Assembly (NCBI GenBank): GCA_964019415.1 | Contig: OZ025877.1 | Coordinates: 778,501 to 842,500 of the forward strand | Direction: 5' to 3' | DNA length: 64,000 nt | Source of the DNA: Ianthella basta | Taxonomy: Eukaryota; Porifera; Demospongiae; Verongiida; Ianthellidae | Part shown: positions 1,836-54,907 of the stretch, piece by piece | Position numbering within the stretch: position 1 is the stretch's first letter | Layout of the letters: each line of letters opens with the position of its first letter | The notes under the pieces: model-generated | Seen by the model: the letters and a program-made list of their open reading frames with translations, nothing else | Told to the model about the DNA's origin: nothing | The model's database searches: none | Position numbers and translations under genes: made by a program

Positions 1836-2043
1836 CTGCCAGTTGTACACTGCTGCAGTCAGTGAACTAACAAAATGGCCCCTTTGACTGAGTTCCATTC
1901 CTAGTGCACTGCACTGCTCACTAGTGTGTGAGCTGCAGTCTGTGCTGTGTCATGACAAGTGTCACTTGTGGAGTCACAGTGCCACACTAAGCTGGGCTAC
2001 TGTAAGTGAAAGGTCTAAAACTGTTTGGAGCTGTGTGTGCTCT

Positions 2044-7608: not shown

Positions 7609-8090
7609 TCCCAGATCTGGAGGAAGGGTGGGTGCTTGCCACATTCCTGGGACCACAGAAATGATGAGAGATATCAACAGAACACTCTATGTCTTGTACA
7701 TACTGTTTTAACACACACTCCCTGTACATGTATGTCACCATATGTATTGGAGCAACTGTAATTATATATGCTGACTGTACATATGGTACATATAATAATT
7801 ATGCATGCATGTGCACAGTGTATGGAGTGCAACTGTATGGGGATGCATGTGTCCATGCTGCAGCCATCCATATGTGTACATGCAGGTAGCGGCACAAGTT
7901 GCTATGATGTAGTGCTGTACTTGAACTAGCCACATACTACCTTATTTGTACATGCAGTGCATGCAAGTTATAGAAAAGGCAATCGAGGACTGTTTTGTAC
8001 AGTACAGTTACAGTGTATGAGGAAGTGTATAAACAGTGAACTGTTTTACATATAAATATGCATATAAATATGGTGATGTACTGATGCCAA

Positions 8091-8170
8091 GCAAACAAGT
8101 GCAAGTGCACGAGAGATGATGAAGAAACAAACAACACAACAACGCTTTGACATTCAGTGCTGTCAATCAT
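8091..8170 (-). pseudogene. relic of the signal-peptide start of the 23-25 kb membrane protein
   Basis: On the minus strand from 8170 the frame begins with ATG, a TECQSVVVLF motif and bases coding Ser/Leu/Val. It matches the start of the membrane-protein gene at 25034 (TECRSVVVLF). After about 25 codons similarity is lost and stops follow. Flanks on both sides are also homologous, so this is the decayed 5' end of a duplicate whose coding body is gone. Confidence 0.7.
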
Positions 8171-9010
8171 TGTAGGCCTTTGCTATGTCTGTGTTGTCTG
8201 TCCTACCATGGAACGACACTGCAAAACAGTACTTGTAACAGTGAGATCGCACTAGAGCTGGTTGTGTACACTTTTAAGTGTAATGGCTAAGATACCGATT
8301 TGCAGCTGATAAAGGAAACGGATCAGAAGATAGCAACTATGTCAACAAGTGTGCTTCTCTTTCGTCCCCTTTGTTCACTGCACACACATGTACAGGCGGT
8401 GTATTGTACAATGTCATGTGAATGTACAGTATGTGTGTGCATTGAAGTTAAAACACTCTCACACTGTATTATTTGCATTGTACATACATGTATAATATAA
8501 TGTTTAATGTCATGCACAATATTACTATTGTAACTTGCACTGTATTTATTGCATGCATTGCATACCATTCTGTTGTAAGTGTGTCTGTATTAAGTGTATA
8601 AATTGTGTAATTAATAGTGCAAAATGGCTTCCCGTTTAGCGGTACAGTTGTGTAACTTAAGCTTCCTGGGAACATGTGCATGCATATATTATGCAATTAA
8701 GTGTAATATAATAATTATAATTCATGTGACTGTGTGACAGTTTCTGATGGTGCTGGTATCCTTGATGCTCCAGTGAGCTGTGAGACTAAGCAACCCGATG
8801 CGAAGGCTTCTACATACAGACCAATATAATTGGCAGCATTAGACCTGCATGCCGTAAGTGGGGAACATAGTGCTTTTGACAGCAATATAGCACTGCTCAC
8901 TTTGGAGTTTATTAGTTGCCTATAACGGGTGCATGAAGGTGACATTAACAAGTTTAATTTTGACTAATGTTAACCTTAACACAATGAGTGCTGCCCTACA
9001 TAGCCAGACC
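8091..9010. repeat. degraded duplicate of the 24.96-27.43 kb segment
   Basis: Matching blocks occur in the same order. They include the signal-peptide start, an upstream block containing GGTGTATTGTACAATGTCAT (8398 against the 25655 area), the block near 8620-8810 against 26970-27150, and a final block at 8961-9005 against 27385-27431. The 25-27 kb copy has gained an internal tandem duplication, a TIR element and the 33-bp minisatellite. This copy lacks them and keeps a single unit-like sequence at its right end. Confidence 0.75.
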
Positions 9011-14884: not shown

Positions 14885-17800
14885 CTGCAAGCAAATCCAA
14901 CCCACACACACAGAAGATTCAAACCATGCACTCAGACAAACAATGCAGTCTATGTGTACTGCCCCTCAGTGTTCCAAGGGACCATGTATACAACATTCAC
15001 AAACTGGGATAGGTTCACTTTCAACACATAATTCTCAATTAGGAACAACCTACATGATTATGTACACACCATGTCTCTCATTATATCAAGTCTACACAGT
15101 ACCATGAAGGGCACACATGTACTCATGCAGTTTAGGGCTATGGAGCTTACCAACTGGGACAGGAGGGGTACGAATGTCTACATTGTGTAGATGTACTGCA
15201 GCAAGACTGCAAACTGACTCCAACTGAAAGGTAATGTTAGAGAGATCAGAAAATGTGGCTGGACCAATGCTCAGTCTCACGCCTTCCACCCGTTTGCAGT
15301 ACTGAGCCATAACCCAGATAGCTCCTTGGAGGTTGGGGTCAGGTATATCCACTGTGGTGCCACATACAGATAAAATGGAATGTGCAAACTCCTCATTGCC
15401 ACTTTCTGACACTACTTCACACAGTTCTGCTAACAGGGTGTCAAAACTAATAGTGGGCTCCACTGCTGTGTCCAGGGTGTTGAGCAGCATGCTCTGGATG
15501 CCTGGGTTGCTGAGGCCACTCACTCCACAATAAAAGAGAAACATTGACTTGATATTATCGTCTCCAAGGACAAAACGCCCCCTCTTGTCATATCTAGGGC
15601 TGAGATGTTTCCTCCAAAACAGAACCTGCTCCTCTGGTGGCTTCTTGGCCATGGCAAGGCCTGCCATGAATTCCTGCAGGGTTCGATGCAAGAAGTGCCA
15701 CGTGCGAGTGGTCGTTCCGAAACGAGTCTGAGATTGAATGCAATTTATCAGACCAAGGAGAGCATCATCTACTTCGAAATTCAACTTGTCAAAAATTATA
15801 GTGTCCGTTACAATACCATCCAAGGCTAAATCAGCTAGTTTAGCAAAACTCGGGCACAGTTTCATCAAGCCCTCAAGACTACCTGCACGCTCTTTCTTCC
15901 CTTCTCGCTTTAGGTTGTAGTTGACCGTGTGGATGATGATGTCCACGTACAGTTGGTGCATTGTGGGAGGGATCCCTTGAGTGTCACCACCATGTGCTGT
16001 TAGAAAACAGATCATCGTCAGCAGCAGAGGTACATAGCAGAGCCTTTTGATGTTAGGGCGGGTGGAGAGGGTTGATAGGAGCTTCTTTCCTGCTGCTGGG
16101 TTGAAGGATGCATAATATTTCGTGATATAGTCCTTCACTTCTTTGTCTCCGAAACCACAGATTTCAACTCTCCTGTCGACACAGGAGTAGAGGCTCTCAG
16201 CAGAGATGGGGCGAGTTGTTATCACGAAAGACGACAATGGAGCAAGACGGCCATCCAAGATATCAGAAATGATTGATTTCTGCTTCATTTCCTCCGACAT
16301 CTCGTCGAATCCATCAAAGACAAAGAGAACACCAGCTCCTTGGTGCGTCAAAACATAGCGAACAATTTCCTGAATGTCAGCCTCATCAGCAACTGTCGTG
16401 TAAATGAGATCCTCTAAGCTCAGCTTCTGGTCCTTGGGGAGGCTCCTCAGGGTCACTTGGATGACTAGTTCATAGTCATGTGCAAATCCACCGACCGACC
16501 AATCGTGGCACATTCGCTGGACGAGAGTGCTCTTGCCGCTGCCTGGCACTCCTTCTATCAAAACCCTCTTCCTGCTCATTACAGTGGATGGCGAGAAAGT
16601 GAGGATGTTCGCATATTCGATTGGTTCTTTGGAGAGTGGCACCTGCTCAGCTCCACCCCTAGCAAGACACACTGACACAGCCTCGTCAGCCCTCCCTGCC
16701 ATCGGCCTCCTTTGCTGCGGCTGTACCAAATTGAGCCTCACGTGCTGCATGTTGGATGAGGCCAGCAGAGGGTTGTCTGGGACACACCCCTTGGAGTAGT
16801 ACGAACACAGCTTGGCATGGAGGGGCTACAACAAACACAGATGAAGTGGATAGATTATATATAAGAAGGTGTGCAAATGTACAAAGCCATGTAAAAGGTA
16901 GCCACATTTATCTGGTATACGTTCTACCAGGGTGCAAGTTGTAGGGGGAACTTCATTAGACAGTACATTAGAAACAAATCAAAGGTCAGCATAGATTATG
17001 TATGGTCACTGCCTTCTCCATGGTCAGTGGTGTCATCATCATCTCTGTCATCATCACCACAACACAAAAGGGTCATCCTAATACTCCATTTCATTCAGAG
17101 GATGGAGAATTAACATAAACCTCATGCACCCCAGATCACACAGTATACCCTGATAAACATGGTATACACAAGATGGCGCCCAGTCACATTTTGTACTGCC
17201 AATATAAACAAAGTGTGACTACAGCTTAACAGTGTATATAGCTTCAGCACTGACTTCACTTGTGATGTTTCTCACACATAGGTCAGATCACATGCTTGTT
17301 ATGTCCCTGACCATGGTATACACACTACACTTACATGTACATGTGTAGAACCATGCATACTTAAGCCGCGTTTACACGAGCACTTTTAATCACGCTTGAA
17401 ATCACACGTGTAAAGGGTCTAAGCAAGCTTAGAAGCCAGCTTACGTAAACCTGGTCTGGAGGTGGTTAGGAAGCGGGTTTAATCGGTCTTGACTAAGCTC
17501 GCTCGTCGTGTAAACAGGTTAAGCGAGCTTACAATCTGCGGCAAATATCTGCAAATGGCTTCTACGCGAGGACAAACCTGGACCCACGAAGAAATCTTAG
17601 CCCTGATTCGTATCTGGTCGGACAGTGCTATTCAGTCTCGTCTGGATGGTGCTTCGAGGACGGCTGACATCTGGCAGGATGTTGCTGGACGGATTAGTGC
17701 TGCTGGCTTCCGAAGAACATCGAAGCAGTGACAAAATGAAAAATCTCAAGCAGGACTACAAGAATTTCAAGCATCACAGACATCCCGCACAATAAGGCAA

Positions 17801-19951: not shown

Positions 19952-20723
19952 GCGCGCGCACAAATACACACACATGCACACACCATGTCAGAGAGTTAGC
20001 ACACAGAAGAAGCTGCTAGCTACAACAGTGCTAGACGGTGCACCTGGGTACAGACTGCCTTGTACATGTGGTGATATCACATAGCTACAGCTGACACTCT
20101 CTTTACCTTTAGCTAGCTGTGTGTGTATGAATGTCAACAGGAGGCCAAGTTGCCACTCTACAGATGTACAGGTCACAACACTTAAGGCTAGGGACCCTAA
20201 CCACACCTACACAGCTAGCTACACACCTAGCTAACATGAAGACCAGACCATGGTGCTTCTCCTAACACCGTTCCACGTATCGAACCTTCCCGCGTGGACA
20301 GTCCGCACAATAGAATGTACACACACAAAATGGTACTGTGCGGCCTATAGCCAGCTAGCTGTGTGAAACCTACAGATGGTCTAACTCACTTGTAGTGGAT
20401 CGGGGAGGATTATCAAGCTCTCGTGATGAGAAGGCTTCGCTTCCTCCAGGTGCGTCGTCCGAGGTCCCAACCCAGACGTTTCGGAAGAACCTCTTACTTG
20501 AAAAGTAGTCTTCGCTTCCTCCGGGTCCATTGTCCGAGGTCACACTCCCGAGGCGTTGATGGCTCAGCATCTTTGTCAGTACACGCATTCTCTCGCGTTG
20601 CCAAATGGCCATTTTCTTCCGCCTCCGTGCGCCCAAGTTTGAGAGAGATTCTATGCCCTGACCGTTCCCACATAAGACAAGGAGGTCGTCCCCTACGTCT
20701 GATCTAGTCGCGCAATTGGACAC
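10072..20723 (-). CDS. NLR-A: CARD-NACHT-LRR intracellular immune receptor
   Basis: Proposed exons, 5' to 3' on the minus strand: 20723-20390, 19408-19322 (Ser/Gln/Pro linker), 19095-18814 (CARD), 18638-18514 (linker), 16825-15151 (NACHT), 14884-14796, 13641-13354, 13210-13036, 12552-12362, 12020-11915, 11798-11617 and 10419-10072 (LRR region, TAA stop at 10072-10074). Every junction has GT/AG and agrees in phase (1,1,1,0,1,0,0,1,0,1,0), which strongly supports the model. The product is about 1,290 residues. No signal peptide or membrane segment was seen, so it is inferred to be cytosolic. In NLRs, NACHT binds ATP/dATP and oligomerises, LRRs gate activation and CARD recruits CARD partners. 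The ligand is unknown. The least certain part is the first exon. A near-identical paralogue, NLR-B, lies about 33 kb away. Confidence 0.82.
14291..14510. mobile_element. 220-bp insertion in an NLR-A intron with 7-bp target duplication
   Basis: TTTCAAT stands on both sides (14284-14290 and 14511-14517). The homologous NLR-B intron has one TTTCAAT (47502-47508) and no insert. This is the signature of a small transposon, SINE or MITE. It has no coding capacity. The ends (TAGTCTCGCATATCCAGACC and CACGTAGACTTGA) are only weakly inverted, so the class is unassigned. Confidence 0.75.
15151..16825 (-). CDS. NLR-A NACHT ATPase exon
   Basis: A single 1,675-nt exon that starts in phase 0 with PLHAKLCSYYSKG. 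Counting from the Met at 16750, Walker A (P-loop) is GVPGSGKST at about residues 67-75, Walker B is VLFVFDGFDEM at 141-151, and the following strand with its arginine is SSFVITTRP at about 173-181. LCYVPLLLTMICFL fits the helical region after NACHT, and WHFLHRTLQEFMAGL matches the conserved winged-helix/HD2 motif. All key nucleotide-binding residues are present. The exon closes with the first LRR-like residues and a GTAAGC donor. I infer that it hydrolyses or exchanges ATP/dATP to drive oligomerisation, as in other NLRs. Confidence 0.92.
17555..17731 (+). pseudogene. Harbinger Myb/SANT-like DNA-binding protein, truncated
   Basis: ATG at 17555 opens MASTRGQTWTHEEILALIRI, then WSDSAIQSRLDG, ISAAGFRRTSKQ and TGA. 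The tryptophan-spaced trihelix/Myb pattern (WTHEE, ALIRIW, GFRRT..Q) is that of the accessory protein carried by Harbinger elements, which helps the transposase reach DNA. Just past the stop, in another frame, MKNLKQDYKNFK continues the family pattern. A frameshift has therefore cut the protein, and the central deletion removes the rest. Confidence 0.85.
17767..18366 (-). pseudogene. Harbinger transposase, N-terminal half
   Basis: A 199-codon frame. After a hydrophobic leader and an Arg-rich stretch it has WWDRIGNQSFTERDWLENFR, then SRGTFLYLCAEL, IPLEQRVAIALWRLATNGDY and RTIGHLFGVSRASV. These are diagnostic of the HARBI1-like transposase N-terminal helix-turn-helix region. The DDE catalytic half is missing: the frame stops at VRDVCDA beside the deletion junction. 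The copy cannot transpose by itself. Confidence 0.9.
18514..18638 (-). CDS. NLR-A CARD-to-NACHT linker exon
   Basis: 125 nt, phase 1 to 0. It reads SEGSQQEPQGRAQSDHHGVS, then a charged tail ending in EEEPVPPSAK, and joins directly to PLHAKL of the NACHT exon. Its first half is almost identical to the linker exon before CARD at 19322-19408, so the two arose by exon duplication; the tails differ. NLR-B uses an unrelated exon at this place (53088-53146). Confidence 0.7.
18814..19095 (-). CDS. NLR-A CARD exon
   Basis: A 282-nt phase 1-1 exon encoding one death-fold domain of the CARD type. It reads AEEVLEEFRKQF, then LRKSNIIPQECQEQI, RKQRNEILYDRLVTN and GYPKMNALGEAMKKKLEA. The spacing of an early Leu-Arg-Lys followed by an Ile-Pro turn, R..ILYD.L and the C-terminal helix fits CARD. 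CARDs bind like with like and couple receptors to effectors. Three related exons lie at 53417-53707, 57782-58072 and 58241-58531. The acceptor context (TTTCCATGCAG) and upstream intron are conserved among them. Confidence 0.75.
19322..19408 (-). CDS. NLR-A linker exon before CARD
   Basis: 87 nt, phase 1-1, encoding a Ser/Gln/Pro-rich linker (SEGSQQEPQGRAQSDHHGVS, then NSTALPS). It has the same length and near-identical sequence as the NLR-B exon at 53934-54020. Confidence 0.7.
19661..19733. mobile_element. 73-bp hairpin MITE with 12-bp flanking repeats
   Basis: The arms CATAGCCAGGCCACCATTTT and AAAATGGCGGTCTGGCTACG are inverted repeats around a short loop. ACTCAAAAGGTA lies on both sides (19649-19660 and 19734-19745) as a probable target duplication. 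Non-coding. Confidence 0.7.
19905..19978 (+). repeat. (AC)n microsatellite
   Basis: AC tract with a CGCGCGCG interruption near 19949, in an NLR-A intron. Confidence 0.95.
20390..20723 (-). CDS. NLR-A candidate first exon
   Basis: Starts at ATG 20723 and runs 111 codons plus one base to a GTGAGT donor. That matches the phase-1 linker exon at 19408. It encodes an Arg/Ser/Gly-rich, probably disordered segment with an internal repeat: TSDNGPGGSED and TSDDAPGGSEA about 20 residues apart. No domain was recognised. The gene could instead start in another exon between 19.4 and 20.4 kb. Confidence 0.45.
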
Positions 20724-20816
20724 TACTGCCTTGGCACTGCTCCCCAGCTGGGGAGGAGTGGGCGGGACAACAGGCTGTGGTGCGCTTCTATTAGAGTAAC
20801 TTGCTAGTCACGCCGC
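20724..20816. promoter_or_regulatory. candidate shared head-to-head promoter of NLR-A and the CHMP3-like unit
   Basis: Fewer than 100 bases separate the candidate first ATG of NLR-A (minus, 20723) from the first CHMP3-like coding remnant (plus, 20817). The stretch is GC-rich with no TATA motif noticed. Shared control is inferred from geometry only. Confidence 0.3.
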
Positions 20817-21118
20817 TCTGAGAATGATCCGAAGGAGCAAGGGGGGGGGGCATCAGGGGACCTGGGTGTGGATACAGCTGTACGCGACTCGTGTGCTCCT
20901 CCTTATTTCCTTGGCTGGGTGTAGCTCAGAGAATGGAAGTCACAGCTGAGAAGGAGCAAAGAGTGATTCAGCCTGAGACAGATCAACGGTAGGGTCATCC
21001 TCTCGTACGCTTCGTAACCGTACTGTACCTTTCGTTTTGAAATCATTCTCCAACACGTGTGATTCCCCCATTGCTTACCTCTCCATCAAGGCATCTGATA
21101 TTTCACGAGGTTCATCCA

Positions 21119-21300
21119 CCTCCCTCCCCCTGCCTCTCTCCCTCTTCATTTCACCTGTTCCTCTCTTCGCCTTCCCTTCCCCCCTCTGTTCCCTTCTCTT
21201 CCCCTCCCCCTCCCCCTCCCCTCCCTCCCTCCCTCCCTCCCTCCCTCCCTCTCCCCTCTGCCTCTCCACACCTCCCCTCTGTTCCCTCCCTCTCCCTCAG
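21119..21300 (+). repeat. CT-rich intron tract before the CHMP3 exon
   Basis: Runs of CCCTC and CCTCCCT up to the AG acceptor. It probably serves as an extended polypyrimidine tract and is slippage-prone. Confidence 0.8.
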
Positions 21301-21480
21301 CGATCAAGCGTGAGGAAGCCAAGGTAGAGAAGTCGCTCAAGGATGCTGCCAAACAGGGCAACAAGGATGTGGCCCTCATCCTGGCCAAGGAGGTGGTGCA
21401 GTCCCGCAAGGCAGTCAGCAAGATGTATGCCTCCATGGCTCAGATCAACTCAGTCATGATGAGCATGGACCACCAGCTGG
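21301..21480 (+). CDS. CHMP3: CHMP3-like exon, intact (ESCRT-III helix 1-2 region)
   Basis: 180 nt between a strong pyrimidine-rich AG acceptor and a GTAGGT donor. The encoded helical hairpin part of ESCRT-III (basic first helix EAKVEKSLKDAAKQ, then RKAVSKMYAS) aligns with CHMP3/VPS24 rather than with other CHMPs. It joins in frame with the exon at 334-464. Confidence 0.8.
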
Positions 21481-21801
21481 GTAGGTCATGTGATAGTCAT
21501 GTGTCTCAGTGTCTCTCAATGTGTTTATCAGTTGTCTGTTTTAGCATAGATTCTCTAAGCTATGCAGAGAATCTATGGTTTTAGTAAATGTCCCCAACAT
21601 AGCTACAGTGACTGTATGTACAGTGCAAGCTGAGATAGCAGTGCATGCTGTGCTGCTGACTGCATGTACCTAATGTGTGGTATACAAATGGCTCTCTTTG
21701 CTCCAGATGCCTACCTGGTGCTCTATTTAGTCTGTGCTGCACAAGAGATGGAGGAGGTTATGTACAAGACAGCAACTAGCCCAGCAAGGACACATAACTG
21801 A

Positions 21802-23045
21802 TCAGCCAAACCAAGAGGAAGAAACACCTTTGGAGGTACACTATACGTACACATGGGGAGGGGTGCCTAATGCCTTGCATAAAGCAAATTATGTGACCAA
21901 TCCCACATGAATGGTTCTGCTTTGCAGACTTTTTACCATTTTGTTTATGTAGAGGTTTCTGTGTGTTATGAATGTCCTTTTTTATGATGGGATGGGCATG
22001 CCCATATACTTCATGAGCTATAAGGATGAAGAGCTCCATTTACATGCTTACATCTCCACGTGGCTGGTGCAAACTGCCACTTCGTATTCTGGTTGCGAAA
22101 CTCTCTAACAATTGGCAATACATGCATAATTATATATGCCTGCAGCTGCTTGGGGTATGCATGTATTCTGACTTCTCTCACTTGCAATACATTTCATTGT
22201 ACTACACAGTTATATTAAGCAAATTTGATTTAATTGACATTTGAATTACTGCCCCTTTAAACTTGTTATTCATGATGCAGTGTATTATAATGTTCATTTT
22301 AATGGCACAATGAGTATAATACTTGGGACAGTGTGCCTTGGACCACCACATGCATGCATGAAGTGGTGCAATGAATTCCATACATGTGTATACACACACA
22401 CATAATTATAACACTAATAATATAATGTGTTTGGTATAATAGCAATGTCCCGTCATGTGAGTATTGTCCAAGCACTGGGTGATATCCAGTTATTGTATAC
22501 AGTACACAATTTGTACTTGTTTGGCGTACACTGTGTACTCTTGTGTGTATGCAGTAATAATGAGCTAGGTAGCAGCTGCATGTGACCCAAAGTACTAGTT
22601 TGGACAGTTAACAGTTTAAATTTAATATGCTACAGCAGATAGTGTTACAGTGGAACCTGTCTATTGCAGTCACCTGTGGGCTGTGTAGCTATAAGTGGCC
22701 TTTATAGAGAGGTGGTTGCTCTACAGAGGTAGACTGCAATGGTGTGCTATTTGGGCCGGGCAGAGTGACTATTTAAGAGAGGTGTGGCTGCCTAACGCAC
22801 TGCAGTGACCATCTCAGACAGGTTTCACTATATACAGCACACATGCATACCTGAGCTTGTAGCTCTGTCAACAGTCAGTCACGGACCTGAGCTCACACTC
22901 AAGGCTGACCACATGTAACACAGTATTCATCACTTTTAACAACTCCCAAAACTTGTTGCATGAGCCTTGTCATGCATGTGGACAGCTAATACACGCATGG
23001 CAGTCACTTGCTAACTATTCATGCACACACACTCCTCAGCCTATG
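21802..23045. other. non-coding stretch, one small MITE
   Basis: No gene was seen apart from the inverted-repeat element at about 22649-22830. It is moderately AT-rich between 22.1 and 22.6 kb. Confidence 0.5.
22649..22830. mobile_element. about 180-bp MITE with imperfect terminal inverted repeats
   Basis: The left end AGTGGAACCTGTCTATTGCA and the right end (reverse complement begins AGTGAAACCTGTCTGAGATG) are inverted. The interior repeats the TATAGAGAGGTGG type of motif. Non-coding. Confidence 0.6.
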
Positions 23046-25034
23046 CTAGTTAAGGAACACACTTTGTCTATTTGTCCTGGGAGGTGTGGAGAACCACAGT
23101 TCCTGATGCCTTTCACTCTTATCAGCTATGCTTCCAAAGGATGTCTCCATCTCTTGCTGCTCCCTTCCCTTCGCTGAATCCTCCTCATCCTTTGCATCCG
23201 CCACCACAACATGTTCATTGGGGACGTGTGTGTCCAGAGCACCTTCTGGTGTGGTTGCAGATGGCTGTCTTTTAAATGACCTCCTCCATCTCTTGTGCAG
23301 CACATAGGCTAAATAGAGCACCAGGTGGGCACCTGGAGCAAAGAGAGCCAACAGGTAGAGAGTGGTCCAGGAGCCCTCCAAGAATCATCGGCTGTCCGGG
23401 TTTGAGTAGATGTAGACTGCCAGAATGTTTGTGGCTGCATGATGTGTGTACATGAGGGAGTCCACCACATTGATCCAACCTCTTCAGTGGGGACGAAGAA
23501 GTGAGTGAAGTGCAAGAACTGCAAGGCTGAGAGCAGTCATTATCACATAGCCCTCCTCCTGGGACCTGCTGACGTTCCACGCCACCACTACCACAATCCA
23601 CACAAGGAGGAGCAGACCAGCAAAGAACCGACAGTCGTCCTTGTAGCTGCTTTGGAATAGATCACCAAAATGCTGAATATTTGGTCTTGAGAAGATGTCC
23701 AGGCACTTTATTCCAGAGACACGCTGCAGAACTCTGTATTTGGACTGTTGCAGTTTTGCTTGCACTTGTGGCAGTGCTGGGTAGGCCAGTAGTAGGCAGG
23801 TGGGGAGCAAGATCATGAATATGATTAGCAGCAAAAACGTAATAGCAATTATAATGTGTTTAGGAGTTGCGAAGAAGCCGTGATTTCCTTGCAGTGCCAG
23901 AACCGGAATGGGAGAGGCATTGGATGGGTTGATGGGCTCAAGCAAGCTCCTGCTGTACAGCACTCCTCCATAGCTCAGGAATCTGGTGTAGGTGAGAGTG
24001 AAGAATGCTGACAAACCGTGGGCAGCAGACTGACCTGACATTCGACCAGACAGCCAACGGACTGCCTTGAAGCGCTGAGAAAGATGTTGCCAGCATTTGG
24101 GGACTCCACAATAGCCATACTGATTGCACCACTGCAGAGCAATGATGGCCAGAATGATGACAAAAGGCAGTAAACGAGTCAATGCCTTGACCAGGATCAT
24201 GTCCAACTGATCCAGGTTGGCTGCACCGGGGGAGATGCAGAATAGAGGGAGAAGGAATGAAAAGAATTGCAAGTTGAACATTCCAAAGAAGAGGACATAC
24301 AGAAAACGTGCGATCACACTGCTTGCAGTACTGTCAATTTTGATGGGCCCAATTGTGCTGACTGGCCAACTTGAGGAAACAAACTGTGCATACACCAAGT
24401 ATGAATTGAGCGGCCCTGCCAAGAGGTTGATGTCAAAGATGAGAAAGGCAGCCAACATAAGCAGCATAGGGAGAGCTTCCAGTAGTAGCCAGAGGAGCCA
24501 GCCCACTTGACTCAGTGGGTCGGTTGCACAGTGCACACAATGTGATAAGAAGAGATTCACCCTTGGGCTATAACCAGGACTACACTCCCCACAAAGAAGT
24601 CCTTTCCGCGTCTTCCCACACACGACTTCATTCAGTTCTCCTGTTGGGTCTGAACTGTTGAAGGAAGAAGGGAGGAGGAGAGGATTCCCATCATCTCCAA
24701 TTCTGCAGAATCCCCTTGGACAAATGTCCATGTACAATTCGAGCTTGCTACTGTTAAAGCCTGCTGGATGCAGAACGTAGCCCACCCAGTAGCCATTCTG
24801 TCAATACACCCTACAACTCTGTTCATTGCATCTGTTAATGCTTAGAGTGTCTCCCCCTGGACAGACACAGTCGTTGCCTGATCTGATCAGCCCTGGAGCA
24901 CAGCGGCCATCAATGGGAGTGCACCTGGACACTCCAGCACCAGCTGAGGCTGAGCAAACAAGTGCAAGTGCACAAGAGATGATGAAGAAATGGAACAGGA
25001 CCACAACGCTTCGACATTCAGTGCTGGCAGTCAT
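23046..25034 (-). pseudogene. single-exon multi-pass membrane receptor-like protein with three in-frame TGA codons
   Basis: One reading frame runs from ATG 25034 to a stop at 23046-23048 (663 codons) with no TAA, TAG or frameshift inside, but with TGA at 24801-24803, 23484-23486 and 23385-23387. The protein starts with a signal peptide (hydrophobic core FHFFIISCALALVC), then a Cys-rich ectodomain (CVCPGGDTLS, NGYWVGYV) and a juxtamembrane CGxCxxGYSP motif (LLCGECSPGYSP). Roughly nine hydrophobic segments and a charged cytoplasmic tail follow. Similarity to the family continues after every TGA: QNGYWVGY after the first, RGWINVVDSLMYTHH after the second and FLEGSWTTLYLLALF after the third. I recall this Cys-rich plus multi-pass layout from sponge and cnidarian gene families, but its function is unknown to me. 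It is most simply a young pseudogene; readthrough or recoding is possible. Confidence 0.75.
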
Positions 25035-25853
25035 TCTAGGTCGGCCTTTGTTGTGTTTGTACCATGGAATGGCACCACTCAGTCTGATGGTACTTTAAAC
25101 AATGAGTTCAGGCGTTAGGCGCAATGGATAGCTAATTAGGTAGCAATTTGTAGCATTAGAGCATGATAAGAACTAAGGAGTAGATAGCGTCAACAAATGT
25201 ACTTCTTTCTGTCCCCTTTGCATGCACATTACACACACACAGGTGGTGCATTGTATACGTACAATGTCAAGTGAACATACAGTGAATTTATGCATGTGTA
25301 TGTATTGAAGTTAACAATTATGAATGTGTTTATCACTGGTGAACACCTATGTACGTTGAGCAATGTTGAGTGCATGCTCATGCAGGTGCACTATAAGTGA
25401 AAACATGAATTTGGACTAGTTTTGTTTGTGGTGTTTGTACCATAGAATGGCACCGCTCAGTCTGATAATATACTTGAAACAGTGAGTGCAAGTTGTGCAT
25501 GGATACCACTTTAGGTGCAATGAGTACTAAGGTAGCAATTTGCAGCATTAGAGCATGATAAAGGGAAATGAGTAGATAACAGCAATGCCTTCAAATGTAC
25601 TTCTCTCTCTGTCCTCTTTGCATGTACATCACACACACATGTACAGGTGGTGTATTGTACAATGTCATGTGAATGTACAGTGAATGTATGCGTACAATAT
25701 GCATGTATTTAGGTTAATTATAAAACACCATACAAGCACTGTTCATGTATTATATTGTCATGCATATTGCACTGTATACCATTCTGTTGTGTGTCAGTAT
25801 TAATGCGTGTACTGTGTAAGAGTGCACTCAGGTTAGGTACAATGCTGGTGCTA
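25035..25853. repeat. two tandem copies of a roughly 290-bp upstream block
   Basis: About 25053-25330 and 25433-25720 are diverged direct repeats. Both run from GTTTGTACCAT through a GTAGCAATTTG..GCATTAGAGCATGATAA section to the GTGGTG(C/T)ATTGTA..ACAATGTCA section. A third copy lies at about 8200-8440 in the older duplicate. It is immediately upstream of the membrane-protein gene, so it may carry its promoter. Confidence 0.65.
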
Positions 25854-26584
25854 CGGTACGGTGCATAGAAAACATGACGATAATTCCGTTTGTCGGTTAA
25901 CTCTTTTCGCCGTTATCACTCCTTTATCCATGAATATTTTTGATTACCTGTTAGCGTTTAACCGGTAACAGTCAACGGAAAACCGTTAATCGTAATAAAA
26001 TGGCCGTCAGCCGTGAACGAAAAAACGGAAATTGAAGGATATCTCTTCAAGAACTGCAAGACGGGCGATGTCAACCCATGGAGAACACTTCTAGAGTCCT
26101 ACTTTATAGTCCCTGAGAGTTTAGTGGCGCCCTGTGCAGTAGTTTTTCCCGAATCACGACCGAACTCTTCGGAGACGCTTGGATACGTTGTCATTCGTGG
26201 ATTGGACACCTGTAAAGACGGTACCATTCGGAGCTGTTTGAATAGACTTGGAGGCGCTTGGATCAGTACGCAACCTTTCGGAGAGACTTGCGAAGATGCT
26301 GCTTTTCGGAATCTATTGCAGAGACACGGCCACTATTATCATCAGATGTGAAGACAGCGACTTAGTGCGCTACGACGGGACCAGTCTCCTTCGCGAACAC
26401 TGGAAACTGCTCCTGCACGCCTACGTATACCGTCGCCCTTTAGTAGGGGTAAAATCGCTACCAGTTAACAATTAAACGTTACTAGATACCGATTAACGTT
26501 TCGCCGTTTGCTGTTTGCTAACGATAACCGACGATAACTGTTACCAGTTTTCCGTTAACGTCATGTTTTCTATGCACCGTACCG
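25854..26584. mobile_element. 731-bp TIR element with TA target duplication
   Basis: Perfect inverted ends of about 26 bases begin CGGTACGGTGCATAGAAAAC at the left; the right end reads CTATGCACCGTACCG. TA lies on both sides (25852-25853, 26585-26586), the target preferred by Tc1/mariner-like elements. Sub-terminal sequence is full of short CGTTAACGG/CCGTTAACG-type repeats in both orientations. No transposase motif is visible, so it is non-autonomous. Confidence 0.85.
26013..26351 (+). CDS. 112-codon open frame inside the TA-flanked element, unknown
   Basis: The frame has no ATG at its 5' end; it opens at GTG 26013, and the nearest upstream ATG is in another frame. It encodes EIEGYLFKNCKTGDVNPWRT, then SRPNSSETLGYVVIRGLDTC, and ends HGHYYHQM. 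I do not recognise a domain. It could be a captured host exon or chance. Confidence 0.2.
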   Translation: MNEKTEIEGYLFKNCKTGDVNPWRTLLESYFIVPESLVAPCAVVFPESRPNSSETLGYVVIRGLDTCKDGTIRSCLNRLGGAWISTQPFGETCEDAAFRNLLQRHGHYYHQM

Positions 26585-26585
26585 T

Positions 26586-27410
26586 ACATGTATAACACAT
26601 ACAACTTGTGTTTTAGCTGCAGTAGCCACAGGTCTTGCTTAATGTGTTCACCACTGGTGACCACCTGCGTACATACCCTGAGCAGTGTACAGTGATCATG
26701 TGCAGCGTAAATGAATGAATTTGGACTCGCCATGTGAAATAGAGTTTACATACAGACAAGGACAATTTATAGGGAATCGAATTGGCATGGTCGTGCTGTA
26801 TCTAAGGCAGGTCACCAGTCATTGTGGTAGTTTACTAGCTAGGTACACACATGTATGACAAATAGCTATACAGCCCATCCATCCACACTGTGAACATGTG
26901 TGGCAGGTCGCACTGACATACAGTTTGAATGCATGCAGCTAGCTATAGGATTTTGAAATGCATTTGTGACAAAATGGTCTCCAGTTTAGTGGTGCATGCA
27001 GTAGTGCACCTTCCTGTGAACATGTGCACATACCTAGCTATTAATGTGTAATATATGTGACTGTGTGTAATGACACTTCCTGATTGTGCTGGCTTGCTGC
27101 TCTGGTGGGCTGTCAAATTGTACACTAAGTGACCCGATATGAAGGCTTTTATACTCCGCCAATTTCCACACCTTTCATACTTAGCTTAGAAATGGCATGG
27201 ACAAGTGGGCACCCATGCCGAGTGTATACACATGTGTATGGGCAGCATTAGACTGCTAAATGTAAGGAGCATAGTGCTTTTGGCAGAAACAGCCTTAATT
27301 TGCTCACTTAGGAGTTTATGTTGGTTGCCAAATATAATATGTGCATCTTCAGAAAGTCATAGCTAACATTAGCAAAGTTACTGTTGTCTAATGATAGCCT
27401 TAATGCACTG
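26586..27410. other. non-coding, right part of the duplicated segment
   Basis: From about 26930 it is homologous to 8620-9000. No coding exon was seen. Confidence 0.5.
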
Positions 27411-29230
27411 AGTGCTGTCCCCTATGTAGCCAAGCTTCATTTGAGTGCTGTCCCCTATGTAGCCAAGCTTCATTTGAGTGCTGTCCCATATGTAGCCAAG
27501 CTTCATTCGAGTGCTGTCCCCTATGTAGCCAAGCTTCATTCGAGTGCTGTCCCCTATGTAGCCAAGCTTCATTCGAGTGCTGGCCCCTGTGTAGCCAAGC
27601 TTCATTCGAGTGCTGGCCCCCATGTAGCCAAGCTTCACTCGAGTGCTGGCCCCTATGTAGCCAAGCTACATTTGAGTGCTGTCCCCTATGTAGCCAGGCT
27701 TCATTCGAGTGCTGTCCCCTATGTAGCCAAGCTTCATTTGAGTGCTGGCCCCTATGTAGCCAAGCTTCATTTGAGTGCTGTCCCATATGTAGCCAAGCTT
27801 CATTCGAGTGCTGTCCCATATGTAGCCAGGCTTCATTCGAGTGCTGGCCCCTATGTAGCCAAGCTTCATTCAAGTGCTGTCCCCTATGTAGCCAGGCTTC
27901 ATTTGAGTGCTGTCCCCTATGTAGCCAAGCTTCATTCAAGTGCTGTCCCCTATGTAGCCAGGCTTCATTTGAGTGCTGTCCCCTATGTAGCCAGGCTTCA
28001 TTCGAGTGCTGGCCCCTATGTAGCCAAGCTTCATTCAAGTGCTGTCCCCTATGTAGCCAGGCTTCATTCGAGTGCTGTCCCCTATGTAGCCAGGCTTCAT
28101 TCGAGTGCTGTCCCCTATGTAGCCAAGCTTCATTCGAGTGCTGTCCCCTATGTAGCCAAGCTTCATTTGAGTGCTGTCCCCTATGTAGCCAAGCTTCATT
28201 CGAGTGCTGTCCCCTATGTAGCCAAGCTTCATTCGAGTGCTGTCCCCTATGTAGCCAAGCTTCATTCGAGTGCTGTCCCCTATGTGCTGGCCCCTATGTA
28301 GCCAAGCTTCATTCGAGTGCTGTCCCCTATGTGCTGGCCCCTATGTAGCCAAGCTTCATTCGAGTGCTGTCCCCCATGTAGCCAGGCTTCATTTGAGTGC
28401 TGTCCCCTATGTAGCCAAGCTTCATTCGAGTGCTGTCCCCCATGTAGCCAGGCTTCATTTGAGTGCTGTCCCCTATGTAGCCAGGCTTCATTCGAGTGCT
28501 GGCCCCCATGTAGCCAAGCTTCATTTGAGTGCTGTCCCCTATGTGCTGGCCCCTATGTAGCCAAGCTTCATTCGAGTGCTGGCCCCCATGTAGCCAAGCT
28601 TCATTCCAGTGCTGGCCCCCATGTAGCCAAGCTTCATTCCAGTGCTGGCCCCCATGTAGCCAAGCTTCATTCCAGTGCTGGCCCCCATGTAGCCAAGCTT
28701 CATTCCAGTGCTGGCCCCCATGTAGCCAAGCTTCATTCCAGTGCTGGCCCCCATGTAGCCAAGCTTCATTCCAGTGCTGGCCCCCATGTAGCCAAGCTTC
28801 ATTCCAGTGCTGGCCCCCATGTAGCCAAGCTTCATTCCAGTGCTGGCCCCCATGTAGCCAAGCTTCATTCCAGTGCTGGCCCCCATGTAGCCAAGCTTCA
28901 TTCCAGTGCTGGCCCCCATGTAGCCAAGCTTCACTCGAGGGCTGGCCCCCATGTAGCCAAGCTTCATTCGAGTGCTGGCCCCCATGTAGCCAAGCTTCAT
29001 TCGAGTGCTGGCCCCCATGTAGCCAAGCTTCACTCGAGTGCTGGCCCCCATGTAGCCAAGCTTCACTCGAGTGCTGGCCCCCATGTAGCCAAGCTTCACT
29101 CGAGTGCTGGCCCCCATGTAGCCAAGCTTCACTCGAGTGCTGGCCCCCATGTAGCCAAGCTTCACTCGAGTGCTGGCCCCCATGTAGCCAAGCTTCACTC
29201 GAGTGCTGGCCCCTATGTAGCCAAGCTTCA
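27411..29230. repeat. 33-bp minisatellite, about 55 copies, open in several frames
   Basis: The unit core is ATGTAGCCAAGCTTCATTCG preceded by GTGCTGTCCCC or GTGCTGGCCCC; every unit holds a HindIII-type AAGCTT. Because 33 is a multiple of three, frames stay open for 200-316 codons on both strands (11-residue repeat SAVPYVAKLHS). No start, signal or flanking exon supports a gene. The left two thirds mix GTCCCCTAT and GGCCCC variants. From about 28575 to 28920 the units are almost identical (CATTCCAGTGCTGGCCCCCA), then a block of CACTCGAG units follows. This suggests recent stepwise expansion. Partial units interrupt near 28280, 28330 and 28540. Confidence 0.95.
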
Positions 29231-29947
29231 TAAATTTCAGTTCGAAAACATTAGCCTAGTTTGCTAATTGCATGGCAACTGTAGTGCAATAGAGAGAAGC
29301 TACATGTACGTCACTAGTGGAAATATTCCGCCAAAATTGGTGGAAAAGGGTGAATAGCATAAACACCAATGCTGGTGGAGAATATCCATCATTTTATGGT
29401 GGATACTACTACCACATACTGTGGCGTATTGCCAACAAAATGGCCTCAAAATGGATCCAGTCTAAACTTTAATCATTCAGATTCAGATTATTATACAATA
29501 CAGAAAAACAATAAATTAAGTGAACACTATCAGTCTCTCATGTATATGTATATGCATGCATTCTGTTTGCAGTCATGTCAGCTATACCTTCTCCATGCTA
29601 CTCTTTGCAGAAAACAATGCTGGTATTGACCTCATGCATGCATGGACATACACAACACAGCAAGATAAGGCAAGATGTACAGGATTAGGCAAGATAGAAT
29701 ATAGGAAGATGAGAAGGATAAAAAAGATACGGCAAGATATGGCGAGATGTAGCATGATGAGGCAAGATATAGAAGTTTTTTGGTCGGTTGTCCAAACTGG
29801 GCACTGGAATCAAAATTGTAGTACATGAACATTAGTCGTCTCGTCATAAAAAATCTCTAGCTCGCGATCTACGTCAACACTAGAATTGCAATTATACTGT
29901 AAGCATGTGTATGAATCCATATAATAATGTGCAAGTGTTTCCCGGAA
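29231..29947. other. non-coding spacer with a small decamer seed
   Basis: No gene was seen. At 29660-29770 there is a short, degenerate run of the CAAGAT decamer, split by about 175 unrelated bases from the main array. Confidence 0.6.
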
Positions 29948-32900
29948 ATTGCAAGATGAGGAAAGAAATAGCAAGATGAGGCAAGATGCAGTAAGATGAG
30001 GCAAAATGAGGCAAGATGAGGCAAGATATTGCAAGATGAGGAAAGAAATAGCAAGATGAGGCAAGATATTGCAAGATGAGGAAAGAAATAGCAAGATGAG
30101 GCAAGATATTGCAAGATGAGGAAAGAAATAGCAAGATGAGGCAAGATATTGCAAGATGAGGAAAGAAATAGCAAGATGAGGCAAGATATTGCAAGATGAG
30201 GAAAGAAATAGCAAGATGAGGCAAGATATTGCAAGATGAGGCAAGACATTGCAAGATGAGGCAAGATATTGCAAGATGAGGCAATATGAGGTAAGATAAA
30301 GCAAGATGAAGCAAGATGAAGCAAGATATAGTTAGATGAAGCAACATATAGCAAGATGAGGCAAGATGAGGCAAGATATGGCAAGATGAGACAAGATGAA
30401 GCAGGATGAAGCAAGATGAGGCAAGATATTGCAAGATGAGGCAAGACATAGCAAGATGAGGCAAGATAAGGCAAGATATTGCAAGATGAGACAAGATGAA
30501 GCAGGATGAAGCAAGATCAGGCAAGATGAAGCAAGATATAGTTAGATGAAGCAAGATATAGCAAGATGAGGCAAGATGAGGCAAGATATGGCAAGATGAG
30601 ACAAGATGAAGCAGGATGAAGCAAGATGAGGCAAGATATTGCAAGATGAGGGAAGACATAACAAGATGAGGCAAGATGAGGCAAGATATTGCAAGATGAG
30701 ACAAGATGAAGCAGGATGAAGCAAGATCAGGCAAGATATTGCAAGATGAAGCAAGATATAGCAAGATGAGGCAAGATATAGCAAGATGAGGAAAGATGAG
30801 GCAAGATGAGGCAAGATGCGGTAAGATATTGCAAGATGAAGCAAGATGAGGCAAGATATAGCAAGATGTAGCAAGATACGGCAAGAAATTGCAAGAAATA
30901 GCAAGATAAGGCAAGATGAGGCAAGATGAGGTAAGATATGGCAAGATGGAGTAAGATGAAGCAAAATATAGCAAGATGAAGCAAGATGAGGCTAGATGAA
31001 GCAAGATATAGCAAGATAAGGCAAGATGAGGAAAGATATAGCAAGATGAGGCAAGATATTGCAAGATGAGGCAAGATGAAGCAAGATAAGGCAAGAAATA
31101 GCAAGATAAAGGAAGATGAGGCAAGATATAGCAAGATGAAGCAAGATGAGGCAAGATGTAGCAAGATGAAGCAGGATAAGGCAAGATATTGCAAGAAATA
31201 GCAAGATGAGGCAAGATGAGGCAAGATATAGCAAGATGAAGCAAGATGAAGTAAGATATTGCAAGATGAGGCAAGATGAGGTAAGATATAGCAAGATAAA
31301 GCACGAAGAGGCAAGTTAAGGTAAGATATAGCAAGATGAGGCAAGATATTGCAAGATGAGGCAAGATATTGCAAGATGAGGCAAGATATTGCAAGATGAG
31401 GCAAGACGAGTTAAGATATAGTAAGATGAAGCAAGATGAGGCAAGATATAGCAAGATGAAGCAAAATGAGGTAAGTCATAGCAAGATGAAGAAAGACGAG
31501 GCAAGATATAGCAGGATGAAGCAGGATAAGGCAAGATATTGCAAGATGAAGCAAAATATAGCAAGATGAAGCAAGATGAAGCAACATATGGCAAGATGAA
31601 GCAAGATGAAGCACAACATAGCAAGATGAAGCAAGATGAAGCACAACATAGCAAGATGAAGCAAGATATAGCAAGATATAGCAAGATGAAGCAAGATGAG
31701 GCAAGATATTGCAAGATGAGGCAAGATGAGGCAAGATGAGGCAAGATGCGGTAAGATATTGCAAGATGAAGCAAGATGAGGCAAGATATATCAAGATGTA
31801 GCAAGATACGGCAAGATATAGCAAGATGAGGCAAGATATTGCAAGATGAAGGAAGATGAGGCAAGATATAGCAAGATGAGGCACGATGAGGCAAGATGAA
31901 GCAGGATGAAGAAAGACGAGGCAAGATGAGGCAAGATGAGGCAAGAAATAGCAAGATGAAGCAAGATGAGGCAAGATATAGCAAGATGAAGAAAGATGAG
32001 GCAAGATATAGCAAGATGAAGCAAGATGAGGCAAGATATACCAAGATTAGGCAAGATGAGGTAAGATATAGCAAGATGAAGCAAGATGAGGCAAGATATA
32101 GCAAGATAAGGCAAGATGAGGCAAGATATAGCAAGATGAAGTAAGATGAAGCAAGATGAAGCAAGATGAGACAAGATATTGCAAGATGAGGAAAGATATT
32201 GCAAGGTGAGGCAAGATGAGGTAAGATATAGCAAGATGAAGCAAGATGAGGCAAGACATAGCAAGATGAAGTAAGATGAAGCAAGATATGGCAAGATGAA
32301 GCAAGATGAAGCAAGATGAGGCAAGATATTGCAAGATGAGGAAAGATATTGCAAGGTGAGGCAAGATGAGGTAAGATATAGCAAGATGAAGCAAGATGAG
32401 GCAAGATATAGCAAGATGAGGCAAGATATTGCAAGATGAAGGAAGATGAGGCTAGATATAGCAAGATGAAGCAAGATGAGGCAAGAAATAGCAAGATGAG
32501 GCAAGAAATAGCAAGATGAATAGCAAGATGAGGCAAGATGAGGCAAGATGAGACAAGATATTGCAAGATGAGGCAAGATGAGACAAGATATAGCAAGATG
32601 AGGCAAGATGAGGCAAGATATAGCAAGATGAAGTAAGATGAAGCAAGATATGGCAAGATGAAGCAAGATGAAGCAAGATGAGGCAAGATATTGCAAGATG
32701 AGGAAAGATATTGCAAGGTGAGGCAAGGTGAGGTAAGATATAGCAAGATGAAGCAAGATGAGGCAAGAAATAGCAAGATGAATAGCAAGATGAAGCAAGA
32801 TGAGGCAAGATATAGCAAGATGAGGCAAGATATTGCAAGATGAAGGAAGATGAGGCTAGATATAGCAAGATGACGCAAGATGAGGCAAAAATAGCAAGAT

Positions 32901-35900
32901 GAGGCAAGATATTGCAAGATGAAGGAAGATGAGGCTAGATATAGCAAGATGAGGCAAGAAATAGCAAGATGAATAGCAAGATGAGGCAAGATGAGGCAAG
33001 ATATAGCAAGATTAGGGCAAGATGAGGTAAGATATAGCAAGATGAAGCAAGATGAAGCAAGATATTGCAAGATGAAGCAAGATATAGCAAGATATTGCAA
33101 GATGAAGGAAGATGAGGCTAGATATAGCAAGATGAAGCAAGATGAGGCAAGAAATAGCAAGATTAATAGCAAGATGAGGCAAGATGAGGCAAGATATAGC
33201 AAGATTAGGCAAGATGAGGTAAGATATAGCAAGATGAAGCAAGATGAAGCAAGATGAGGCAAGATGAAGCAAGATATAGCAAGATATAGCAAGATGAAGC
33301 AAGATGAGGCAAGATATAGCAAGATGAAGCAAGATGAGGCAAGATATAGCAAGATTAGGCAAGATCAGGGAAGATATAGCAAGATGAAGCAAGATGAAGC
33401 AAGATATTGCAAGATGAGGCAAGATGAGGCAAGATGAAGCAAGATATAGCAAGATATAGCAAGATGAAGCAAGATAAGGCAAGATATAGTAAGATGAGGC
33501 AATATGAAGCAAGATGAAGCAAGTTGAGGAAAGATATTGCAAGATGAGGCAAGAAATAGCAAGATGAAGCAAGATGAGGCAAGATATAGCAGATTAAGCA
33601 AGATGAGGTAAGATATAGCAAGATGAAGCAAGATGAAGCAAGATATTGCAAGATGAAGCAAGATGAGGCAAGATGAAGCAAGATATAGCAAGATGAGGCA
33701 AGATATAGCAAGATGAAGCAAGATGAGGCAAGATATAGCAAGATAAGGCAAGATAAGGCAAGATATAGTAAGATGAAGCAAGATGAGGCAAGACATAGCA
33801 AGATGTGGCAAGATGAGGCAAGAAATAGCAAGATGAAGCAAGATGAGGCAAGACATAGCAAGATGTGGCAAGATGAGGCAAGAAATAGCAAGATGAATAG
33901 CAAGATGAAGCAAGATGAGGCAAGAAATAGCAAGATAAGGCAAGATGAGGCAAGAGGAGGCGAGATATAGCAAGATGAGGCAAGATATTTTAAGATGAAG
34001 CAAGATGAGGCAAGATGAGGCAAGATATAGCAAGATAAGGCAAGATGAGGCAAGATATTTTAAGATGAAGCAAGATGAGGCAAGATGAGGCAAGATATAG
34101 CAAGATAAGGCAAGATGAGGCAAGATATTTTAAGATGAAGCAAGATGAGGCAAGATATAGCAAGATAAGGCAAGATCAGGCAAGATATAGCAAGATGAGG
34201 CAAGATGAGGCAAGATGAAGCAAGATGAGGCCAGATATTGCAAGATGAGGCAAGATGAGACAAGAAATAGCAAGATGAAGCAAGATGAGGCAAGATATAG
34301 TAAGATGAAGGAAGATGAGGCAAGATATAGCAAGATAAGGCAAGATGAGGCAAGATACAGAAAGATGAGGCAAGATGAGGCAAGATATTGCAAGATGAGG
34401 CAAGATATAGCAAGATGAGGCAAGATGAGGTAAGATGTGGCAAGATGAAGCAAGATGAAGCAAGATATAGCAAGATGAGGAAAGATATAGCAAGATGAGG
34501 GAAGTTATTGCAAGATGAGGGAAGATGAAGCAAGATAAGGCAAGAAATAGCAAGATGAGGCAAGATGATGCAGGAAATAGCAAGATGAAGAAAGATGAGG
34601 CAAGATGAAGAAAGATAAAGCAAGAGGAGGCAAGATATAGCAAGATGAGGCAAGAGGAGGCAAGATATTGCAAGATGAGGCAAAATGAGGCAAGATGAAG
34701 CAAGTTATAGCAAGATGAAGAAGATGAGGCAAGATATAGCAAGATGAGGCAAGATACAGAAAGATGAGGCAAGATGAGGCAAGGTATTGCAAGATGAGGC
34801 AAAATGAGGCAAGATGAAGCAAGATATAGCAAGATGAAGCAAGATGAGGCAAGATATAGCAAGATGAGGCAAGATACAGAAAGATGAGGCAAGATGAGGC
34901 AAGGTATTGCAAGATGAGGCAAGATATAGCAAGATGAGGCAAGATGAGGAAAGATATAGCAAGATGAAGCAAGATGAGGCAAGATGAAGCAAGACGAGGC
35001 AAGATATAGCAAGATGAAGCAAGATGAGGTAAGAAATAGCAAGATGAGGCAAGATGAAGCAAGATGAGGTAAGATATAGCAAGATGAGGCAAGATGAGGC
35101 ATGATATAGAGAGAGGCAAGATATAGCAAGATGAGGCAAGATAAGGTAAGAAACAGCAAGATGAAGCAAGATGAGGCAAGATGAGGAAAGATGAGGCAAG
35201 ATATAGCAAGATGAAGCAAGATGAGGCAAGATATAGCAAGATGAAGCAAGATGAGACAAGATGAGGCAAGATATGGTAAGATAGTACAAGATGAGGAAAG
35301 ATCAGGCAAGATATTGCAAGATGAGGCAAGATGAGGAAAGATGAGGCAAGATATATCAAGATGAGGCAAGATATAGCAAGATGAAGCAAGATGAGGTAAG
35401 AAATAGCAAGATGAGGCAAGATGTAGCAACTTGAAGATGAGGTAAGATATAGCAGGATGAAGCAAGATGAGGCAAGATATAGCAAGATGAAGCAAGATGA
35501 GGCAAGATGAGGCAAGAAATAGCAAGATGAGGCAAGATAAGGTAAGAAACAGCAAGATGAAGCAAGATGAGGCAAGATGAGGAAAGATGAGGCAAGATAT
35601 AGCAAGATAAAGCAAGATATAGCAAGATGAAGCAAGATGAGGCAAGATATAGCAAGATGAGGCAAGATATAGCAAGATGAAGCAAGATGAGACAAGATGA
35701 GGCAAGATATGGCAAGATAGTACAAGATGAGGAAAGATCAGGCAAGATATTGCAAGATGAGGCAAGACATAGCAAGATGAGGCAAGATATATCAAGATGA
35801 GGCAAGATGAGGCATGATATTGCAAGATGAGGCAAGATATAGAAAGAAGAAGCAAAATGAGGTAAGATATAGCAAGATGAGGCAGATGAGGCAAGATGAA

Positions 35901-36027
35901 GGAAGATGAGGCAAGATGAGGCAAGATATAGCTAAATGAAGGAAGATGAGGCAAGATGAGGAAGATATTGCAAGATTAGGCAATAAATTGCAAAATGAAG
36001 CAAGATAAGGCAAGATTAGGCAAGATA
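29948..36027. repeat. about 6-kb array of 10-bp CAAGAT repeats
   Basis: The repeat is built from GCAAGATGAG, GCAAGATGAA, GCAAGATATA and GCAAGATATT, roughly 600 units. They combine into higher-order blocks of 20-60 bases, such as GAG-ATATA-GAA. A few 12-13-base units (AAGATGAATAGC) shift the register. Minus-strand frames of up to 678 codons (repeat ILPHLASSC) come from the absence of stop codons in three-unit (30-base) periods; with no exon context I do not call them genes. Copy-number polymorphism is expected. Confidence 0.95.

Positions 36028-40848: not shown

Positions 40849-54907
<14,059 letters not shown>

Follow-up and report, generated by a model that had tools for sequence, protein, structure and literature searches.

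A frame interrupted only by TGA codons

Does a long reading frame whose only internal stops are TGA codons belong to a gene in which UGA is read in an unusual way, or is it an ordinary gene copy that has been broken by mutation? This question is raised by a locus of the sponge Ianthella basta, located in a stretch of 64,000 nucleotides (the window; C10:778501-842500 of a 209-Mb assembly with 96 contigs). On the minus strand, positions 25034-23046 form a single frame of 662 codons followed by TAG. It contains no internal TAA or TAG and three internal TGA codons on the same strand, TGA1 at 24801-24803 (codon 78), TGA2 at 23484-23486 (codon 517) and TGA3 at 23385-23387 (codon 550). Re-reading of the minus-strand frame thus confirms both the positions of the TGA codons and the absence of other internal stops, as given by an earlier sequence-only reading. 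As the two remaining frames of this strand contain 20 and 24 stops over the same interval, the open frame is not due to chance; it is a real coding sequence or the remnant of one. The probability that all three stops are TGA is 0.035-0.105 under simple mutation models, and the CpG ratio is low, with values of 0.28 in the gene and 0.39 in the window.

Sister copies in the same genome

A search of the sponge's own genome with the middle segment of the frame (438 aa) as query gave 96 matches, with 96 of 332 candidates scored. At least seven other long copies, 96-98% identical, are present on C10 (L011 in two pieces). The matches listed also include a partial copy on C5 (88% at the protein level) as well as three at 71%, which lie on C1, C7 and C19. 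With the same query, 1 and 18 pattern matches were obtained in the collections viral_contigs and genome_contigs, respectively, none of which was confirmed by tblastn. The DNA alignment comprises 12 copies: the window copy, seven further C10 copies and those on C5, C7, C1 and C19.

Two of the sisters on C10, L002 and L003, are intact, with no stop through 651 codons and a TAG thereafter, and they supply the intact relative by which an unprocessed pseudogene is recognised. They align with the window copy over the whole length, which substantiates the earlier statement that family-like sequence continues past each TGA. The remaining five C10 sisters are broken too, and three of these carry stops other than TGA: L004 one TAA and one TAG, and L006 and L007 a TAG at codon 150 that they have in common, along with a 2-base deletion. 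In L005, there is a TGA at codon 8, 9 bases are deleted and the 3' end is taken up by foreign sequence; L011 has a 1-base deletion and has lost its 3' end. The middle is missing from the C5 copy. In the family frame, the eight C10 copies contain four TGA, two TAG and one TAA (the stop shared by L006 and L007 counted once), and TGA is common yet not the sole stop type among them. The outgroup copies on C19 (TAA and TGA) and C1 (TAG) also contain stops in the family frame, but both are gapped in the alignment and were given no weight. In a tree of the copies, L006 and L007 are joined with 99% support, while support for the remaining C10 branches is only 18-66%.

Sense codons at the TGA sites

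At the site of TGA1, all 11 relatives encode leucine (TTA in eight, CTA in two, CTG in one), and TTA is found in each of the eight close copies (seven on C10 and one on C5). The C5 copy is gapped at the other two sites, leaving 10 relatives with letters. At TGA2, seven have CGA (Arg), i.e., all seven C10 sisters, and three have CAA (Gln); at TGA3, CGC (Arg) occurs in six, CGA (Arg) in one and CAA (Gln) in three. TGA3 differs from most sisters in two bases and from the CGA form in L011 in one. Among the 12 aligned copies, TGA at these three sites is seen in the window copy alone.

The sequence-only reading had attributed the TGA codons to CGA-to-TGA changes at methylated CpG and had asked whether paralogues show Arg or Trp at these positions. 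Arginine is indeed present at TGA2 and TGA3 in all seven C10 sisters, and deamination of CpG within CGA would account for both sites; TGA2 in particular is the C-to-T change that had been proposed. The explanation fails for TGA1, where the relatives have leucine and where a T-to-G change of TTA, a non-CpG transversion, created the stop.

A frameshifting insertion at the 3' end

Alignment with the paralogues revealed an 11-base insertion (23081-23091, minus strand), which is private to the window copy, is located after the family residues ELWF and causes the last codons to leave the family frame. The 3' end (23046-23080, minus strand) is out of frame, and the TAG with which it closes (23046-23048) does not correspond to the stop of the family. 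The paralogues terminate with QDK and TAG after 651 codons; the window copy instead reads 14 unrelated residues up to a later TAG. The length of 663 codons is in part a product of this frameshift. The insertion is absent from L002, L003, L004, L006, L007, the C5 copy and the three outgroups; L005 and L011 have unrelated sequence at this point and are not scorable for it.

The insertion refutes the statement that the frame has no indel over 1,989 bases, and the apparent oddity of a frame with only TGA and no indel was overstated. It could not be spotted by a reader without the sister copies. That neutral decay should leave frameshifts as well ceased to be an argument once the insertion had been found. 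In the duplicated non-coding DNA of the window, 17 frameshift-size indels were counted against 237 substitutions, with 11 of the 15 listed alignment blocks left out as overlapping. From this ratio, three nonsense changes without a frameshift have a P of 0.035, with most of the indels lying in one poorly aligned block.

Flanking DNA and copying history

The similarity between copies extends beyond the coding frame on both sides. The 3' flank (22120-23080, minus strand) is shared with L002 (locus L028; 97.8% over 961 columns), and the 5' flank (25043-25854, minus strand) is shared with L004 (locus L030; 92.9% over 845 columns). Among the matches listed and in the fetched stretches, NACHT-bearing blocks are repeated at 93-96% near L002 and L004. 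The recurrence of flanks and NACHT-bearing blocks together with the sister copies indicates that the copies arose as long blocks of DNA, not by retrocopying. Introns are of no use as a mark of retrocopies in this family, as the intact copies consist of one uninterrupted frame.

Within the window, two NACHT frames are found at 15092-16750 (553 codons with stop) and 48004-49701 (566 codons with stop). They are located in a duplicated block that is 93% alike, with adjoining blocks at 95%. The two proteins are 88% identical, and their lengths differ by 39 bases, in frame. Both frames lack an in-frame TGA and end with TAG, and hence TGA is not a sense codon in them and the ordinary code is used. 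The window also contains long tandem arrays (2043-7437, 27384-29267 and 29800-36000), including a strongly strand-skewed satellite of approx. 10-base units near 30-36 kb. A hairpin match to a microRNA family at 26447-26530 is weak (29.8 bits, cut-off 50) and probably due to chance.

Fragments of the membrane-protein gene occur in the window as well. An inverted 3' fragment is located at 21689-21773 on the plus strand (91% over 87 aligned columns, with a 2-base gap). Such fragments are found at nine listed places, the window's included, and in eight of nine copies (the window copy, six on C10 and the C5 copy, not L005) one lies within approx. 1.3 kb of the 3' end; a further one, at C10:493839, is not accompanied by any listed copy. 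A detached 5' fragment with the start region is present at 8081-8192 on the minus strand (82% over 117 columns, with a 4-base and a 1-base gap), and its upstream region is partly preserved. The first 80-90 coding bases recur in this detached form at seven listed places on C10, including the one in the window, and could be debris or the shared start of another gene.

The encoded protein and its relatives

The predicted product contains a signal-peptide-like hydrophobic start, a Cys-rich stretch, several hydrophobic membrane-like segments, the last of which falls past TGA3, and a charged tail. It looks like a multi-pass membrane protein. The Cys-rich stretch matches positions 15-45 of the 45 profile positions of DUF7630 (Pfam PF24633). 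The family is thus similar to DUF7630 in this stretch and differs from it in its sub-threshold score, since the window segment (22.2 bits) and the intact L003 (19.8 bits) both stay below the curated cut-off of 27 that defines membership. Of the four segments scored for codon usage, the two shorter ones gave a weak signal. Four matches to solved structures, all zinc fingers with an E of 0.58 or worse, were taken as chance.

Distant relatives of the membrane part (approx. 31-36%) occur within very long single frames, of which there are at least dozens on C4, C9, C12, C13 and C15. The two frames that were read, L031 (C9:4637000-4646900) and L032 (C4:10702500-10712400), encode 1,768 and 1,720 aa, respectively, and show an extended, repetitive-looking N-terminal part, followed by the Cys-rich and membrane parts. 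The L031 frame matched no Pfam family at an E of 0.1. Several C4 matches are duplicated on C86 with identical scores, and C86 may be a second haplotype or a duplicate.

Loss of constraint in the window copy

Private changes were defined as sites at which one C10 copy differs and all other lettered C10 copies agree. They were counted over 634 of the 651 codons; other variable sites were dropped, and the partial C5 copy and the outgroups were excluded. The counts of nonsynonymous, nonsense and synonymous changes are 11:3:0 for the window copy, 5:0:4 for L002, 3:0:5 for L003, 7:2:1 for L004, 2:1:8 for L005, 3:0:0 for L006, 3:0:1 for L007 and 9:0:5 for L011. The ratio of amino-acid-changing or nonsense to synonymous changes is therefore 14:0 in the window copy versus 8:9 in L002 and L003 together (Fisher P 0.0013), and the contrast persists when nonsense changes are left out (Fisher P 0.0039). 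In the two intact copies, nonsynonymous changes are below the neutral expectation (P 0.009). The 14:0 versus 8:9 contrast is the loss of constraint that characterises an unprocessed pseudogene, subject to the caveat of L005: the type of change does not cleanly tell dead copies from live ones, as the ratio is 3:8 in the broken L005 and 9:5 in the broken L011, and because L005 is rich in synonymous changes, the measure misses some dead copies. In the window copy, nonsense changes make up 3 of 14, more than the 4% that random change would give (P 0.017), and synonymous changes (0 of 14) are below expectation (P 0.021). Both deviations are mild and are treated here as chance combined with the choice of a site for its stops.

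Alternative explanations

The observation that TGA is the only stop type inside the frame, and that the frame stays family-like after each TGA, would be compatible with readthrough or recoding, in which translation passes through all three codons to yield a full-length protein. This is very improbable, as the codons replace Leu and Arg instead of one residue and are confined to one of 12 copies. Because different amino acids are replaced, a single recoding of UGA, as selenocysteine or as tryptophan, is ruled out. The following codons are CAG, AGA and TTC, and the leaky stop context UGA-CUA is absent; the 90 bases downstream of the three codons show no unusual RNA fold (z of -0.70, 0.67 and -1.23). 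In addition, the frameshifting insertion lies downstream and the pattern of changes looks unconstrained. The presence of UGA as the sole in-frame stop would also suit a selenoprotein. This is the least probable of the explanations and practically without weight, because no relative has Cys at a UGA site, the residues there being Leu, Arg or Gln, and no SECIS family was reported by Rfam scans of 20000-27000 (E up to 5) or of the whole window (gathering score). With a loose SECIS-like pattern, 423 matches were obtained where 157 were expected; most of the listed ones lie in the satellite after 29900, and the count is uninformative. Genome-wide reassignment of TGA was rejected as well, on the basis of the two NACHT frames without TGA and of the differing residues that the three TGA codons replace, an argument that covers these genes only.

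Repair of the transcript by RNA editing has a negligible probability: U-to-C changes could in principle restore Arg at two sites, but TGA1 would require G-to-U, which no base editing is known to make, and the insertion would persist. Thus, readthrough, selenocysteine and editing, which the sequence-only reading had kept as rarer alternatives, lose their basis. Short introns of length 3n around the TGA codons would likewise keep the frame open. They are just as negligible, since the intact sisters have sense codons exactly there within an uninterrupted frame of 651 codons, and close sister identity runs through the TGA places. Near-identical segmental copies are difficult to assemble, and the broken frame could stem from collapsed copies, or from an assembly or consensus error in a gene that is in fact intact. 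This is very unlikely. The copy is set apart by 14 private substitutions and by the private 11-base insertion, and in the TGA3 codon the third base, too, is unlike that of six of the seven C10 sisters; such states do not resemble random isolated error.

A young pseudogene in a duplicated array

The feature at 23046-25034 (minus strand) is almost certainly a young unprocessed pseudogene in a segmental-duplication array, derived from a single-frame, putative multi-pass membrane-protein gene with an intact length of 651 codons. This conclusion, already favoured by the sequence-only reading, is strongly supported by the intact, near-identical sisters with sense codons at the stop sites, observed together with the insertion, the shared flanks and the type-of-change contrast. 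The undamaged near-identical copies on the same chromosome indicate that the three stops are ordinary damage and not a new reading of the code. The membrane-protein gene was copied several times within C10 along with its flanking DNA, in a region in which NACHT-bearing blocks recur as well. The window copy would then have lost its function, the order of these events being our reconstruction. It gathered three nonsense changes, a surplus of amino-acid changes and the frameshifting insertion of 11 bases, and the intact copies stayed under constraint. The window copy probably makes no useful protein. That the broken copies beside NACHT genes serve as a store of variants, from which gene conversion diversifies the intact receptor-like membrane-protein genes, is improbable; the branch support of 18-66% within the C10 set permits exchange among copies and does not demonstrate it.

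A tempting case of stop-codon recoding is thereby closed as false. Ordinary decay can yield a frame broken by TGA alone, and a single comparison with sister copies is enough to decide. The array, with two intact copies, several differently broken ones and repeated NACHT blocks, is a fair example of birth-and-death in a large animal gene family. A literature search, limited to titles and the openings of abstracts, found nothing on point. The window copy is an ordinary feature: like young duplicated pseudogenes in tandem or segmental animal gene families, it has intact sisters, copied flanks, nonsense changes with a frameshift and a nonsynonymous excess, and it shows no difference of weight from these, except that its internal stops happen to be all TGA.
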